5,924 nt of DNA from Anaerolineales bacterium. GTDB lineage: Bacteria; Chloroflexota; Anaerolineae; 4572-78; NAK82. The notes beneath the pieces are model-generated. The model saw nothing but the letters and a program-made list of their open reading frames with translations, ran no database searches and was not told where the DNA came from. The stretch's first letter is position 1. Each line of letters opens with the position of its first letter. The stretch is from the NCBI GenBank assembly GCA_024643945.1, contig JAHELX010000404.1:1-5924 (forward strand), given 5' to 3'. Below are positions 796-5,924 of the stretch, piece after piece. A program made the position numbers and the translations under genes.

Positions 796-1602
796 TCAAG
801 ATGAATCTTCAGCCAACAAGGCCTTGATCACTTCTTGGGTACGATCATAACCCCCTTCGCCGATGTGGAGGTATCGAATGTCTCCAGCCTTGTCAATGAG
901 ATACATGGCCGGCCAATAACGGTTTCGATAGGCGCGCCACGTCTTCCAGTCATTATCCAGGGCGACCGGATAAAGCACATCCAGGCGCACGAGCGCTTCC
1001 TTAACGTTGTTCAGGTCTTTCTCGTAGTTAAACTCGGGGGTGTGGACACCAATCACTACCAGGCCGTCGTCTTTGTAAGTGTTATACCATTCCCTCACCG
1101 AGGGAATTACGTGGATACAGTTAATTCAGCCAAAGGTCCAGAATTCAACCAGGACCACCTTGCCCCGCAGGTCGGCCAGCTTAAGAGGTTCCGAGTTGAG
1201 CCAGGCTTCGTTGAGCAGTTCAGGCGCAGTGCCCTGGCTTTCGAGGCTGGCCAAAAGCCTCAATTGCTCTTCAGATGGTCCTTTATTGTCATCCTCCGAC
1301 ACAGACTCGTCAGAGGTAACCACAGGCTCGGTCACCGGCTTTGGCGTAGGCGCATCTTGAATATCAGTGGGTGCAACCTCGATCCTGACTGTCGGAGTCT
1401 GCGCGGGTGCGTTCTCTGCCGGGGCAGTTTCAACTGGCCCGGCAACGCCTGAGACAGCCGTCGGCTCCGGTTGAGTCACTCTGATCGGGGGCGGCTCTTG
1501 AACCACTGCGGGACTTTGCGAACTCGTGCCAGGCACCCCACAGGCGGAAATCAAGGCCACCAGACTCAGCACCAGGCACCCCCATCGACTTGGTTTGAAC
1601 AT
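796..1602 (-). CDS. Thioredoxin-like lipoprotein with a U-x-x-C active site (candidate selenoprotein)
   Basis: The continuous frame has 268 residues if the UGA at 1128-1126 is read as selenocysteine 159. Residues 1-20 form a signal peptide ending in the lipobox ISAC, with lipidated Cys21. Residues 22-125 are a Pro/Thr/Glu-rich, probably disordered linker. The thioredoxin fold covers about 126-268. It includes GKVVLVEFWTFG, then U159-I-N-C162 where relatives carry C-x-x-C, then VVIGVHTPEF and the cis-proline loop WPAMYLID (Pro231), as in TlpA/DipZ-type domains. Mature protein has no cysteine other than Cys21 and Cys162, so U159-C162 is its only redox pair. It should act as a thiol-disulfide oxidoreductase outside the cytoplasmic membrane. 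Start ATG 1602 has AGAGGG 9 nt upstream; the final stop is also UGA (798-796). The molybdoenzyme gene ends 81 bp upstream. The alternative, a nonsense mutant, is less likely given the UGA position, intact downstream frame and SECIS-like hairpin. Confidence 0.85.
1089..1128 (-). promoter_or_regulatory. Recoded UGA and bacterial SECIS-like hairpin
   Basis: On the minus strand the UGA codon (1128-1126) is followed by 26 nt and then a three-base apical loop GGU (1099-1097). The loop is closed by a perfect 8-bp stem, ATTCCCTC (1107-1100) with GAGGGAAT (1096-1089). Bacterial SECIS elements, as I recall the published search rules, have a short apical loop with a G in its first two bases and lie roughly 16-37 nt after the UGA. 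All of these hold here. It would recruit SelB with Sec-tRNA to the UGA. Confidence 0.75.
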
Positions 1603-1683: not shown

Positions 1684-3375
1684 TTAAATATCCACCGTCA
1701 CCAGGTGATAGCCGGTTGCACCATTGGGGCGGACACCGCTTACCTCCTCGATTTGTAGTGCTCCGGTGCCATCGGTGGCACGAACCCGAAACCTGTGGCG
1801 TCCGGTGCTCATCGGCCAATCGTAACGCCATTGCACCCATGTCAGCGAGCTGAGCGGTGGTGTGCGCAGGACAGCCTCTGCCCATTCCCCACCGTCCACC
1901 TGCAGCTCGACTTTCTGGATGCCGCGGTCTCCCGCCCAGGCGATGCCACCGACGGGTATCTTGCTGTCTACGATATGATCCTTGGCCACGGTATCAATCA
2001 CCGAGACAATTTGCACGCGCGCCTCGGCGCTCCAGCCCCGTTCTACCCAGTAGCCTGGCCCCTGGTGATCAATGGCCTCGATGCGCTTGATCCACTTGGG
2101 TTGCTTCATTCCATAGCGATTGGGGATATAAATGCGCAGCGGAAAACCATGCTCCACAGGCAGCGTCTCCCCATTCATCCCATACACGAGCAGGGTACGC
2201 GGGTCCATCAAATCTTCCATCGCCACACTCTCGTAAAAGCCATCGGCCGCCTCGATGTACAGTTCTTCGGCCTCCGGTCGCAGCCCCAGGTCTTTGAGCA
2301 CGTCGCGCAGGCGCACACCGGTCCAATTGCTGGTGCCGATCAAGTCGCCGGCAACGGGATTGGAGATGCAGCTCAGTGTAATCGCCTGGGTTGTCGCAGG
2401 ATAAGCCGTAAGGTCAGACAGCGTGAGCGGACGGGGATTGTCGAATAGCCCGTCTACTTCCAGCATCCAAGACGCCTCTTCAATGCTGACCGGGCGCGTG
2501 TTGATGTCAATGCGATAAAAATCTTCATTCGGAGTCAGTTCGAGACGTGTACCGGGTGCCGGTTGAACGCGGTCACGCATGGTTGCTGTCGCCGTCGGTT
2601 GCGGTAGCGGCGTAGACGAGGGTACCGGCGAGGTCCCCGACATAGGCGTTTCGGTAGGCGCCCCACCAAGAGACTGCACACCCGGCGAGGGCTGCGTCGT
2701 GGCGGTTGGTTCCGGCGTAGCCGTCACCAAATCAGCCAACGGCTGGCCGGCTCCGGTCGCTTCTTGCTGCGCCTCCAGAACGCGGCCCAACCCCCACGCG
2801 CCCAAAGCAATCGCCGCCGAGCCGCCAGCGATCTTGATAAGCGCGGCTCGGCGCGCGGCTCGGGCCTCATCCGTCACCGGTGGGGCTGCCTGGGACTCCA
2901 GCAGCTTGCCCAGCAACGCCCCCCAGCCGACGATCAAAAACGCCAGCCAGAGCAGCGCCAGGACGGGGTTGCCGGCGATCCCTATGAACTCGATGATGCT
3001 GACGAGGAGAAAGACCACCAGGCCGCTTGCAGCCCCTACGCGCCAGCCTGGGCCATCACTGCGCCTCAGCGCCCAGGCAATGACCACGCCGAGCAAAACG
3101 CCGCCGCCCACCACCATAGCAATCGCCATAAGCTGCTCGATCCGCTTGGCCGCCGCGCTTGTCGGTCCCAGATTCAGGGCGCCAACCGTCCGCACGATGG
3201 CATCGATTCCCAAGGTAATTACGTTGCCCGGCAGCACCCGCGCCAACCAGTCGAAGAGATCAAAAGGAACGAACGGAAATCCGGCGAACTGCTCGCCGAC
3301 GAACAAGAGCGCTATGAGGGGCAAGCTCGTCAGGCCCCCCAGCAGCGCACCAAATGCTATAGAAGGTCGTTTCAT
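1684..3375 (-). CDS. Polytopic membrane molybdopterin-dependent oxidoreductase, sulfite oxidase family
   Basis: 563 residues. Hydrophobic segments at about 8-27, 83-103, 113-134, 137-157 and 180-198 give five predicted membrane helices. A Pro/Thr-rich linker follows (205-265), then a molybdenum-cofactor domain (about 270-440) and a C-terminal Ig-like dimerisation domain (about 450-563). ITLSCISNP contains Cys336, the expected molybdenum ligand and the only cysteine in the protein. HGFPLRIYIPN (409-419) is the family's cofactor-binding signature. RRAALIK (175-181) just before helix five looks like an internal Tat signal. This fits a cofactor-loaded domain exported by Tat after Sec inserts the first four helices. 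The substrate is not readable from sequence; sulfite oxidation or MsrP-like sulfoxide reduction are candidates. ATG 3375 has AAAGGAAA about 7 nt upstream. It heads a probable operon with the selenoprotein gene, from a promoter near 3607. Confidence 0.9.
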   Translation of the reverse strand: MKRPSIAFGALLGGLTSLPLIALLFVGEQFAGFPFVPFDLFDWLARVLPGNVITLGIDAIVRTVGALNLGPTSAAAKRIEQLMAIAMVVGGGVLLGVVIAWALRRSDGPGWRVGAASGLVVFLLVSIIEFIGIAGNPVLALLWLAFLIVGWGALLGKLLESQAAPPVTDEARAARRAALIKIAGGSAAIALGAWGLGRVLEAQQEATGAGQPLADLVTATPEPTATTQPSPGVQSLGGAPTETPMSGTSPVPSSTPLPQPTATATMRDRVQPAPGTRLELTPNEDFYRIDINTRPVSIEEASWMLEVDGLFDNPRPLTLSDLTAYPATTQAITLSCISNPVAGDLIGTSNWTGVRLRDVLKDLGLRPEAEELYIEAADGFYESVAMEDLMDPRTLLVYGMNGETLPVEHGFPLRIYIPNRYGMKQPKWIKRIEAIDHQGPGYWVERGWSAEARVQIVSVIDTVAKDHIVDSKIPVGGIAWAGDRGIQKVELQVDGGEWAEAVLRTPPLSSLTWVQWRYDWPMSTGRHRFRVRATDGTGALQIEEVSGVRPNGATGYHLVTVDI

Positions 3376-3841
3376 CAGCTTTTCCTTTCCACCATGCGAT
3401 GATCACCACGCACAAGCAAATAAGTCTTGATGGGCCCAGGCCCAGGTTTTCCAGGCTAAGACACTCAGAATACCATACAGAACCTTTTTTGAATATACAC
3501 AATGATTGCACAGCTATGTTTTCAGATTCGAACGACAGAATATGACTCTCATACCATTATTGTGCGACAAAATTCGGATAATGTCTAGTACAAAACTCTT
3601 GTAAGTAGTATAATACCCGGTAACTCTTACGCTGATCTTGCAAAATTCTTACAAGATTCTTAAAAGCAAGCCCCCGCTCTTCAATGGACACGGTTAGTGT
3701 ATCTGTAGCGGCCGGCTTGAAATCAATCTGTACGCTTATTGCACTCTACCACCAGGTGTTGTAAACTGTGGGACGTAGCTGCCCGATATTTCATCGGCTG
3801 TATTTCATTCTAGTTCAAACATTAGTTTGGCAGTGTGTATT
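3376..3841. other. 466-bp divergent intergenic region
   Basis: It separates the minus-strand molybdoenzyme operon from the plus-strand phosphatase. No credible small gene was found. It contains the tandem-hexamer promoter (3607-3664), which would give the molybdoenzyme a leader of about 225 nt. It also has an isolated TTGTAAGTAGT followed by TATAAT (3599-3614), and an AT-rich stretch with only a weak possible minus-strand -10 (TATTCT, 3472-3467). Between 3665 and 3841 I see no convincing plus-strand promoter or Shine-Dalgarno for the phosphatase. Confidence 0.6.
3607..3664 (-). promoter_or_regulatory. Promoter with four 11-bp-spaced hexamers for the molybdoenzyme-selenoprotein operon
   Basis: Read on the minus strand, the hexamers are TTTAAG (3664-3659), TGTAAG (3653-3648), TGCAAG (3642-3637) and CGTAAG (3631-3626), at an exact 11-bp period. 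Thirteen bp after the last copy is TATACT (3612-3607), a five-of-six -10 box, giving a start near 3600. The layout matches the promoters at 721-778 and 5699-5734. The outer copies diverge most, so affinity may differ. The block could also influence the divergent phosphatase gene. Confidence 0.6.
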
Positions 3842-5680
3842 ATGTCAACTAGGCCCGATTTGATCCAGAACCTGACCATGCTTAATCAGATAGCTCAAAC
3901 GCTGAACCAGGCAGTGGACGTTCGTGGTGCCCTCAATACCGCCCTGGCACAACTGGTTGAGTTGATGGAACTGGAAACCGGCTGGATTTTTCTCATAGAC
4001 CCGACCGCTCAGGAACGATGGGGAGGTAAAGGGTATGTACTGGTGGCTCACCACAACCTGCCCCCTGCGTTAGCATTGGACAACACACACCTCTGGACAG
4101 ACGGCTGCGAGTGCCAGGATCTCTGCGACAAGGGGCGTTTGTCCCAGGCGTATAACGAGGTGCGTTGCAGCCGGCTAGAGAGCGCCAGCGGGGACCGACA
4201 TGGGTTAACGGTGCACGCCTCCACACCCTTGCACTCTGGCGATCGCACTCTGGGCATTCTCAACGTGGCCGCCAGGGACTGGTCCTCTTTCAGCCCCCAA
4301 GCTCTAGCCCTGTTGACCAACGTCGGCAGCCAGATGGGCATTGCCCTGGAGCGGGCACGCCTCTTCGACATGCTGCGTGAGCGGCGCATTCACGAACAGG
4401 CAGCCTTGCTCGACTTCTCAAACCAGTTGCTAAGCCGCCTGGACCTGGACGACTTGATGCAGTATCTGGTAGAGAAAGCCCGCCAGTTGCTGGAGGCCGA
4501 CGCTTGCGCGCTGCTGTTGCTTGACGAGGAGCCTGGCTACCTGGCCTTTGCCGCTGCCAGTGGCTGGCACTTTGATCCTGTAGCAGAAGGGCACCTGGTG
4601 CCGGCTGACAAGGGCAGTGGACCTGGACTGGTAATGCGCACGCAACAGCCCTTGTTGGCGGAGGACATCGCGACCAGCGACCCGGCCTCCTGGACGCCGG
4701 CCTGGTTACGCGCGGAGGGCTTTCGAGGCCACGCAGTGGTACCGCTAATCGCTGAAGGACGCTCCATCGGCGCTTTGGTGATCGATTCGCGACGTCCACG
4801 CCTGTTGGATGAGAGCGAGGTGCGCTTTCTGCACCTGATGGCCAACCAGGCTGCCATTGCCATCGAGAAAGCACGATTACACCAGGAAGAGATCAAGCGG
4901 CAGAGGTTGGAACAGGAACTGACCGTCGCCCGGCAGATTCAGCTTAGTTTTTTGCCTGAAGCCTGTCCAGTTGTGCCAGGCTGGGATCTCGCGGCGTGCT
5001 ATCAGGCAGCACGGTTGGTGGGCGGTGACTTTTACGACTTTTTTGAGTTGCCGGGGGGACCGGGCCGGTTGGGCATCGTGGTCGCGGATGTGGCGGACAA
5101 AGGAGTGCCCGCTGCTTTATTTATGGCTCTCAGCCGCACGATGATTCGCACTACCGCCCTCAGCGGCCGCAGCCCGGCGGCGGCGCTGATGCGGGCCAAT
5201 GAGTTAATGCTGAAGGATAGCCAGGCAGATTTGTTCGTGAGCGCCTTCTACGCGACTCTGGACATCCACAGTGGCAGATTGACTTACGCCAATGCCGGTC
5301 ACAACTGGCCGCTGTGGCTGCACGTCGCCAGCGGGGAGTTCCAGGCGTTAGCTGCTCGCGGTATCGTCTTGGGCATTTTCGAGAACATCGAACTGGAAGA
5401 ACGAGAGATCGAGGTGACTCCCGGCGACTTGCTCATCTTCTACACCGACGGCGTGACCGAGGCCATGAACGCCGAGGACGAGTTGTTTGGTGAAGAAAGG
5501 CTGCGGGCGGCTGTGGCGACCGCTGCCCCGGAAGCCAGCGCACAACGGGTCCTTGAGGCAGTGATGGACGCCATCAACGCTTTTACCGGCAACACTCCGC
5601 AGTCGGACGACTTCACCCTCCTCGTCGTCAAGCGAAACCCTTTGCAAAACCCTCCGCCTTCTGTCGTTCCTGCCGATTGA
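3842..5680 (+). CDS. GAF-GAF-PP2C serine phosphatase (RsbU/SpoIIE type)
   Basis: 612 residues from ATG 3842; in-frame TTG 3827 and GTG 3833 would add a few residues, and none has a clear Shine-Dalgarno. No membrane segments, so a cytoplasmic sensor-phosphatase. GAF domain 1 covers about 10-172, GAF domain 2 about 185-345, then a charged helical linker (340-366) and a SpoIIE-type PP2C domain (372-597). Metal-binding and catalytic motifs are intact: GGDFYD (394-399), VADVADKGVPAAL (414-426), NAGHN (484-488), FYTDGVTE (533-540) and SDDFTLL (588-594). Family members dephosphorylate anti-sigma-factor antagonists in partner-switching pathways, here presumably in response to ligands or redox state at the GAF domains. 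GAF 1 carries an unusual cysteine set, C89, C91, C95 and C109. No antagonist or anti-sigma kinase gene is in the window. The response regulator follows after 155 bp with its own promoter. Confidence 0.9.
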   Translation: MSTRPDLIQNLTMLNQIAQTLNQAVDVRGALNTALAQLVELMELETGWIFLIDPTAQERWGGKGYVLVAHHNLPPALALDNTHLWTDGCECQDLCDKGRLSQAYNEVRCSRLESASGDRHGLTVHASTPLHSGDRTLGILNVAARDWSSFSPQALALLTNVGSQMGIALERARLFDMLRERRIHEQAALLDFSNQLLSRLDLDDLMQYLVEKARQLLEADACALLLLDEEPGYLAFAAASGWHFDPVAEGHLVPADKGSGPGLVMRTQQPLLAEDIATSDPASWTPAWLRAEGFRGHAVVPLIAEGRSIGALVIDSRRPRLLDESEVRFLHLMANQAAIAIEKARLHQEEIKRQRLEQELTVARQIQLSFLPEACPVVPGWDLAACYQAARLVGGDFYDFFELPGGPGRLGIVVADVADKGVPAALFMALSRTMIRTTALSGRSPAAALMRANELMLKDSQADLFVSAFYATLDIHSGRLTYANAGHNWPLWLHVASGEFQALAARGIVLGIFENIELEEREIEVTPGDLLIFYTDGVTEAMNAEDELFGEERLRAAVATAAPEASAQRVLEAVMDAINAFTGNTPQSDDFTLLVVKRNPLQNPPPSVVPAD

Positions 5681-5698: not shown

Positions 5699-5734
5699 TG
5701 TAAGTAGTTTGTAAGAATTATGGGTTAGTATAGT
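5699..5734 (+). promoter_or_regulatory. Response-regulator promoter with two 11-bp-spaced TGTAAG boxes
   Basis: TGTAAG at 5699-5704 and 5710-5715 is repeated at an 11-bp period, each copy preceded by T. Thirteen bp after the second is TATAGT (5729-5734), a five-of-six -10 box. No -35 hexamer matches consensus at 16-18 bp. The start would be near 5741, leaving a leader of about 95 nt. The same architecture elsewhere in the window suggests control by one regulator, plausibly the product of this gene. Confidence 0.6.
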
Positions 5735-5835: not shown

Positions 5836-5924
5836 ATGAACGAACCGACAATCTTGGTGGTGGATGACGAACCCAGTATCAACGAGGTAGTTAGCATTTA
5901 CCTGAGACGTGCAGGGTATCAAGT
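5836..5924 (+). CDS. Response regulator, receiver domain start, truncated by the window edge
   Basis: Only 29 complete codons are visible. They read as the first strand and helix of a CheY-like receiver domain: TILVVDDEP (5-13) with the acidic pair Asp10-Asp11 that helps bind magnesium, then a helix ending LRRAGYQ. The phospho-accepting Asp and any output domain lie beyond the edge, so OmpR/PhoB membership is not shown directly. It is suggested by the tandem 11-bp boxes in its promoter and by the form of this N-terminus. ATG 5836 is preceded by AGGACGG about 8 nt upstream. A partner histidine kinase is expected downstream or elsewhere. Confidence 0.9.
   Translation, partial: MNEPTILVVDDEPSINEVVSIYLRRAGYQ

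Follow-up and report, generated by a model that had tools for sequence, protein, structure and literature searches.

A thioredoxin-like lipoprotein of an Anaerolineales bacterium with a probable selenocysteine at its first catalytic position

The window analysed here, a stretch of 5,924 nucleotides from an Anaerolineales contig (JAHELX010000404.1), carries a minus-strand gene for a thioredoxin-like lipoprotein that appears to be broken. Reading from position 1602, there are 158 codons, a TGA, 109 further codons and a final TGA. The question raised by this locus is whether the internal UGA marks a decayed or divided gene, a change in the genetic code, or a selenocysteine (Sec) codon. The comparisons described below indicate that, in spite of its broken appearance, the gene almost certainly encodes a complete selenium-containing thioredoxin that is anchored outside the cell membrane.

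Reading frame and codon 159

The original prediction that two open reading frame fragments share a single frame, split only by a UGA that occupies the first cysteine position of a C-x-x-C motif, was confirmed. The translation flanking the codon is VEFWTFG-U-INCIHVIPS, and codon 159 corresponds to the first CxxC cysteine of DipZ/TlpA-like thioredoxins. The fold was also proposed to continue intact beyond the UGA to a proline loop, in agreement with what was found. The read-through product scores above the Pfam cut-offs of AhpC-TSA, Redoxin (PF08534) and Thioredoxin_8, and an AlphaFold2 model of residues 108-268, with Cys placed at position 159, is one compact domain with a mean pLDDT of 95.9. 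In this model residue 159 directly precedes the long active-site helix, and the catalytic pair sits at the N-terminal end of the first long helix together with the proline loop, as in the thioredoxin fold. Pro231 is probably the cis-Pro of this fold. The coordinates of all features are collected in Table 1.

Table 1. Features of the thioredoxin locus in the window
Feature	Positions	Strand	Details and basis
Whole frame of the proposed Sec-containing thioredoxin-like lipoprotein	796..1602	-	268 residues + stop TGA at 796-798
Signal peptide with lipobox ISA-C, putative lipidated Cys21	1540..1602	-	By eye from the translation + simple pattern
Pro/Thr/Glu-rich linker between lipid anchor and domain	1282..1539	-	Translation
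DipZ/TlpA-like thioredoxin domain, residues 118-268	799..1251	-	phmmer DipZ 2hyx/5cyy E 8e-49; Foldseek rank 1 DipZ
In-frame UGA, codon 159, proposed selenocysteine, U of UINC (UxxC)	1126..1128	-	TGA in 59/172 distinct relatives (window included), TGC/TGT in 113
Resolving cysteine Cys162 of UxxC	1117..1119	-	Column invariant (14-sequence alignment)
SECIS-like hairpin, 8-bp stem AUUCCCUC/GAGGGAAU, GGU loop at 1097-1099	1089..1107	-	Fold, synonymous shuffles, covariation, covariance model
Pro231 of YWPAMYLID motif, probable cis-Pro loop	910..912	-	Column invariant (14-sequence alignment)
Molybdopterin oxidoreductase (PF00174), 563 aa, hydrophobic N-terminal region	1684..3375	-	Co-directional, 81 bp upstream of the thioredoxin gene

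The lipobox at residues 18-21, recognized by eye and with a simple pattern, predicts a bacterial lipoprotein. A pattern script detected a lipobox-like motif in 37 of the 59 relatives with TGA at the site, so by this test some relatives are not lipoproteins; the other 22 include truncated sequences, sequences whose start was not trimmed and sequences with a plain hydrophobic N-terminus.

Relatives were taken from species genomes (the best 80 of 584, among which nine Chloroflexota loci had TGA at the site) and from a search of 396 genomes of one class, drawn from a larger group, in which 119 genomes had relatives at E<=1e-25. For the latter set all listed places with a counted stop were used, together with part of those without one, some low-scoring places being omitted. 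The 172 distinct relatives that span codon 159 have TGC (92), TGA (59, window included) or TGT (21), which gives 113 Cys codons, 59 UGA codons and nothing else. All 59 TGA genes remain open in frame for at least 106 residues beyond the UGA, with exactly one stop in the aligned stretch of each. Among the 113 Cys rows, three are interrupted by a stop within the alignment; these stops correspond to query positions 67, 75 and 266, none of them close to codon 159. Cys occupies the site in five class matches for which TAA or TAG were the only stops that the search tool counted; in one further match (G221) the tool counted a TGA, yet the site encodes Cys. Varied sense codons followed by a decayed downstream frame, the pattern named beforehand as speaking against a selenoprotein, was looked for in these relatives and not seen. 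No relative was found in a scan of viral contigs, and none of the 261 records returned by a plasmid search covered 80% of the query. Since 58 other distinct relatives share the TGA and an open frame after it, and the read-through domain is modelled at the pLDDT given above, the in-frame UGA is not a chance event.

As foreseen, standard gene calling splits such genes, and databases contain the two halves. Among the best 120 database matches, at least 8 proteins with a length of 157-158 residues (80-91% identical over that length) terminate at the FWTFG that precedes the UGA, and the best 120 for the C-terminal half alone include at least 15 short proteins of about 100 residues (92-97% identical). 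Six of the 8 N-halves could be matched to a C-half whose longest contig has an equal size (42165, 14569, 8283, 6301, 5795 and 4049), so that N- and C-halves very likely lie on the same contigs, as judged from these sizes.

These halves might instead be two genuine proteins, a 158-residue lipoprotein and a 100-residue C-terminal protein started from an internal GTG at 1098, since an ORF with this start is present and C-halves are deposited. Such a division would lose the first active-site residue and cut the thioredoxin fold between strand and helix, whereas the full-length Cys homologues are single proteins and the model is one compact domain, which makes this reading very improbable. A pseudogene or sequencing error, in which a former Cys thioredoxin gene acquired a nonsense mutation, would agree with the two hypothetical proteins given by databases and with the Cys found at the site in the nearest full-length database relatives (14-sequence alignment). 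Its likelihood is reduced to almost nothing by the identical codon and intact frame in 58 other genes, by the identity of the C-halves of close relatives, which exceeds that of the N-halves, and by a covarying hairpin after the UGA. An altered code, in which UGA would generally be read as Cys or another residue in this lineage, would account for a UGA that interrupts a coding frame in place of a Cys codon but has a negligible probability, because TGA is the final stop of 24 of the 59 TGA genes (TAA of 21, TAG of 13, one lying past the end of its locus), the tRNA with a TCA anticodon is tRNA-Sec in 8 of 9 TGA genomes, translation with table 11 gives full-length neighbouring genes, and within the window both the thioredoxin gene and a GAF/SpoIIE-type gene (stop at 5678-5680) end in TGA, the same two stops from which it had been argued that UGA is not generally reassigned. 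All three readings were rejected on the codon 159 counts, the C-half identities and the intact downstream frames.

Hairpin and selenocysteine machinery

A bacterial SECIS is a hairpin located just 3′ of the UGA with a short apical loop that contains G(U). In the window, AUUCCCUC-GGU-GAGGGAAU covers nucleotides 19-37 after the UGA, with the stem starting at nucleotide 19 and the loop at nucleotide 27. Most TGA rows have, at a fixed distance, a hairpin whose loop reads G(U/G)U; it is rare in Cys relatives. Counts were made on 58 of the 59 TGA rows, the remaining one (L143) having too little upstream sequence, and on 39 Cys rows of the Chloroflexota set. Of the 8 stem pairs found in the window, 7 or more are present in 44 of the 58 TGA rows versus 3 of the 39 Cys rows, the loop of the best hairpin starts at the same nucleotide in 43 TGA rows, and loop nucleotide 27 is G in 54 TGA versus 12 Cys rows (Fisher p 8e-11). 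The 14 TGA rows with fewer than 7 pairs comprise 12 with a shifted hairpin and an AGUU or AGUUUG loop, one with an imperfect stem (L008), and one with no hairpin of this kind (L171).

Covariation was assessed on the 49 distinct TGA rows that were left after merging identical 51-nt stretches. Changes on both sides were found in 6 of the 8 pairs (shuffled mean 2.8; 3 of 500 shuffles as high). The cells with such changes numbered 21, against 4.1 for the shuffles, and none of the 500 shuffles reached that number; when the hairpin was slid out of place, these measures were lower. The number of further pair types in the same rows was not above that of shuffles, 137 of 500 being as high. The rare Arg codon AGG is used at codon 11 in 42 of the 58 TGA rows and for 20 of 510 Arg codons further downstream, and Leu TTG is found in 48 of the 58. 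Synonymous codon choice is bent by the hairpin.

Taken alone, the hairpin of the window does not stand out from dinucleotide shuffles (z -1.03). Against synonymous shuffles it gave p = 0.012 with downstream codon usage and p = 0.033 with usage of the hairpin region. The test with downstream usage was positive for 39 of the 58 TGA rows versus 3 of the 39 Cys rows. With hairpin-region usage p<0.05 was reached in 14 TGA and 5 Cys rows, but this first test was too strict because its codon usage was drawn from the hairpin region itself. An Rfam scan of the window gave no match at gathering thresholds. A covariance model built from the TGA rows had a single match in the window, at the very site that had been part of its training set.

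The machinery for Sec incorporation was searched in the genomes of TGA relatives. In the first nine such Chloroflexota genomes tRNA-Sec was found in 8, selB in 9, selA in 8 and selD in 8. ARAGORN reported SeC(tca) in the eight genomes with tRNA-Sec, whose selD genes contain one in-frame TGA each, and identified a match above the cut-off in G012 as tRNA-Ser. Fifty further TGA genomes contained tRNA-Sec in 42 cases (by score cut-off, without ARAGORN) and selB in 48, with one or the other in 49. Neither was found in the fiftieth (G326), and tRNA-Sec, selA and selD were not found in another TGA genome (G005); draft incompleteness is the likely cause of both gaps. The background of the Sec trait is high, with tRNA-Sec in 71 of 90 sampled genomes of the class and in 27 of 30 genomes of the further set that have no TGA copy, about as often as in those with one. 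The presence of machinery in relatives is therefore not diagnostic, and an association with TGA is not demonstrable since nearly all genomes of the set possess it. Two SelB-family matches above the cut-off were seen in G314.

Relation to known families and Sec/Cys exchange

The closest solved structure by sequence is the C-terminal periplasmic domain of DipZ from Mycobacterium tuberculosis (2hyx, 5cyy; phmmer), which also ranks first in Foldseek (TMq 0.87, 53% identity), followed by NHLRC2 and others. DipZ has Cys in its CxxC motif and a solved chain about twice as long, whereas the window protein would have Sec, is a single domain and carries a lipobox. ResA and TlpA share the extracytoplasmic, anchored thioredoxin fold but have Cys where Sec is proposed here; the ResA model NF002854 gave 65.8 bits against a curated cut-off of 170. 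Thioredoxin-NHL proteins of the NHLRC2/SOQ1 type have a homologous thioredoxin domain (6gc1, 7djj). Eight long TGA relatives from the class search (L193-L200) probably have this NHL architecture, as judged by length, with at least 442 residues after the site. Their TGA replaces the first catalytic Cys and is followed by a shifted hairpin of their own with an AGUU loop, and they form a possible second Sec group.

A quick tree calculated without the site residue, which included 161 of 190 rows and left out part of the Cys rows of L046-L080, shows Sec and Cys rows interleaved, with 19 changes by parsimony of which 5 are forced by well supported branches; some forks are open and the NHL-type group carries a long-branch warning. 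The window adjoins a Cys group of metagenome proteins (P0009-P0020, SH-aLRT 81), and together they belong to a clade in which 23 Sec rows are mixed with 16 Cys rows. When the covariance model was applied to Cys loci outside its training set, L224, L231 and L230 scored 40-48 bits and all other Cys-locus matches less than 24, scores that partly reflect coding similarity. In L176/L230 (8270-8320) a TGT codon is followed by the full 8-pair stem with a GGU loop, and in L224 (8292-8342) a Cys gene has kept the full 8-pair hairpin and lost the loop G. The hairpins of L230 and L224 are probable fossil SECIS elements that were left after reversion from Sec to Cys. With many related Sec and Cys members, and at least one Cys member that retains the hairpin, this group offers a natural system to study why Sec is kept or lost.

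UxxC selenoproteins of thioredoxin, Prx-like, thiol-disulfide isomerase-like and redoxin type are listed, between them, in PMC13188914, PMC9312934, PMC1794560, PMC2398784 and PMC1088965. The 'Redoxin family protein' and 'Thiol-disulfide isomerase-like protein' of PMC13188914 and PMC9312934 resemble the window protein, by their descriptions, in the thioredoxin fold, Sec as the first residue of UxxC and Redoxin PF08534. For Chloroflexi PMC1794560 gives 3 selenoproteins of 3 families, and for Anaerolineales the published use of selenocysteine concerns formate dehydrogenases and the elongation factor (PMC4959059; also PMC5736913). Term searches found no mention of 'Chloroflex' or 'lipoprotein' in PMC13188914 and no match in PMC12013277 and PMC5029168. 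Titles and abstract openings on selenoproteins with thioredoxin, Chloroflexota/Anaerolineae, NHL repeat or MsrP/MsrQ, a body in which subscription papers mostly fall outside the scope, do not describe the group. Since redoxin/TlpA-type UxxC selenoproteins already appear in reviews, the kind is known and the Chloroflexota group appears to be a new and sizeable addition. It adds many mis-annotated Sec thioredoxin genes from environmental Chloroflexota, and numerous database entries prove to be halves of one selenoprotein.

Proposed mechanism and gene neighbourhood

The selenoprotein reading is supported by a codon that is only UGA or Cys, by intact frames, by a covarying SECIS-type hairpin, and by Sec machinery in the genomes of most TGA relatives. 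We hold with high confidence that the gene encodes a membrane-anchored U-x-x-C lipoprotein, decoded by SelB and tRNA-Sec with the help of the hairpin, which would act as a thiol/selenol oxidoreductase of the cell envelope, probably in sulfur-redox repair. In the proposed mechanism SelB and tRNA-Sec would decode codon 159 as selenocysteine, directed by the hairpin that starts 19 nucleotides later. After export the Sec selenolate would attack and Cys162 would resolve, which would make the protein a fast thiol/selenol oxidoreductase on the outer side of the membrane. Electrons could be supplied by a CcdA/DsbD-type membrane protein, and the molybdenum oxidoreductase, which is MsrP in several relatives, may be a partner or a co-regulated enzyme.

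The neighbourhood was compared in 53 loci with flanks (35 TGA and 18 Cys). In 16 of them, window included (8 TGA and 8 Cys), a homologue of the PF00174 protein of the window is encoded on the same strand at a distance of no more than 160 bp, and an MsrQ-type gene follows further on in 13 loci, of which 12 belong to these 16. The MsrP-type neighbours of L009 and L017 score above the NCBIfam cut-off (456.7 each versus 207), as do three MsrQ-type neighbours (167-178 versus 130); several of the relatives with MsrP/MsrQ neighbours are of Anaerolineales type. In L009 (6512-10171) and similar loci the order is histidine kinase, Sec thioredoxin, MsrP and MsrQ, and the opposite strand nearby encodes a CcdA-type protein and another thioredoxin-like protein. 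A DsbD_TM-type gene was found on the opposite strand in 8 loci, mostly about 3 kb away. One protein cluster with 66 members is represented in 35 loci at a distance of up to 5 kb, and in 17 loci at up to 300 bp. The 14 members that were inspected are either response regulators or histidine-kinase-like membrane proteins, and Pfam confirmed one of each. The molybdenum protein of the window is below the NCBIfam cut-offs for both MsrP (54.2 versus 207) and SoxC (121.6 versus 420), and its gene is upstream, not downstream, of the thioredoxin gene. Since it is neither MsrP nor SoxC by these cut-offs and lies upstream, the functional link is put forward as a proposal.

Given the roles of MsrPQ and CcdA, these neighbours suggest a function in envelope sulfur-redox repair. 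The main alternative is that the Sec protein has a partner other than the molybdenum enzyme and functions in cytochrome c maturation or in the general reduction of envelope disulfides. ResA and TlpA are among the sequence and fold neighbours, the molybdenum gene adjoins in only 16 of the 53 loci, and nine Caldilineaceae-type relatives have different neighbours. On the other hand, every one of these 16 molybdenum genes keeps to the strand and distance given above, and most are accompanied by the MsrQ-type gene. We give this alternative somewhat less than an even chance. The linkage to MsrP/MsrQ makes the proposed role, repair outside the membrane, directly testable. A more speculative and rather doubtful extension is a selenium-dependent envelope repair module in Chloroflexota, in which a lipid-anchored Sec thioredoxin would be charged by a CcdA/DsbD-type transporter and would maintain surface proteins in the reduced state jointly with MsrP/MsrQ or a related molybdenum oxidoreductase, under two-component control and with repeated switching between Sec and Cys at the active site.

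Two further elements were seen between genes of the window. Direct repeats of CTTACANNNTN with 11-bp steps are present at 740-776, 3637-3662 and 5701-5715, with six matches at no more than one mismatch versus 0.04 expected. They resemble the boxes of OmpR/PhoB-type response regulators, and a response-regulator-like gene begins at 5836; the repeats may define a small regulon that includes the thioredoxin operon. The second element is a perfect 16-nt inverted repeat (583-598 and 665-680, 66 nt apart) between the thioredoxin gene and an ECF sigma factor gene, which possibly represents the ends of a small mobile element.
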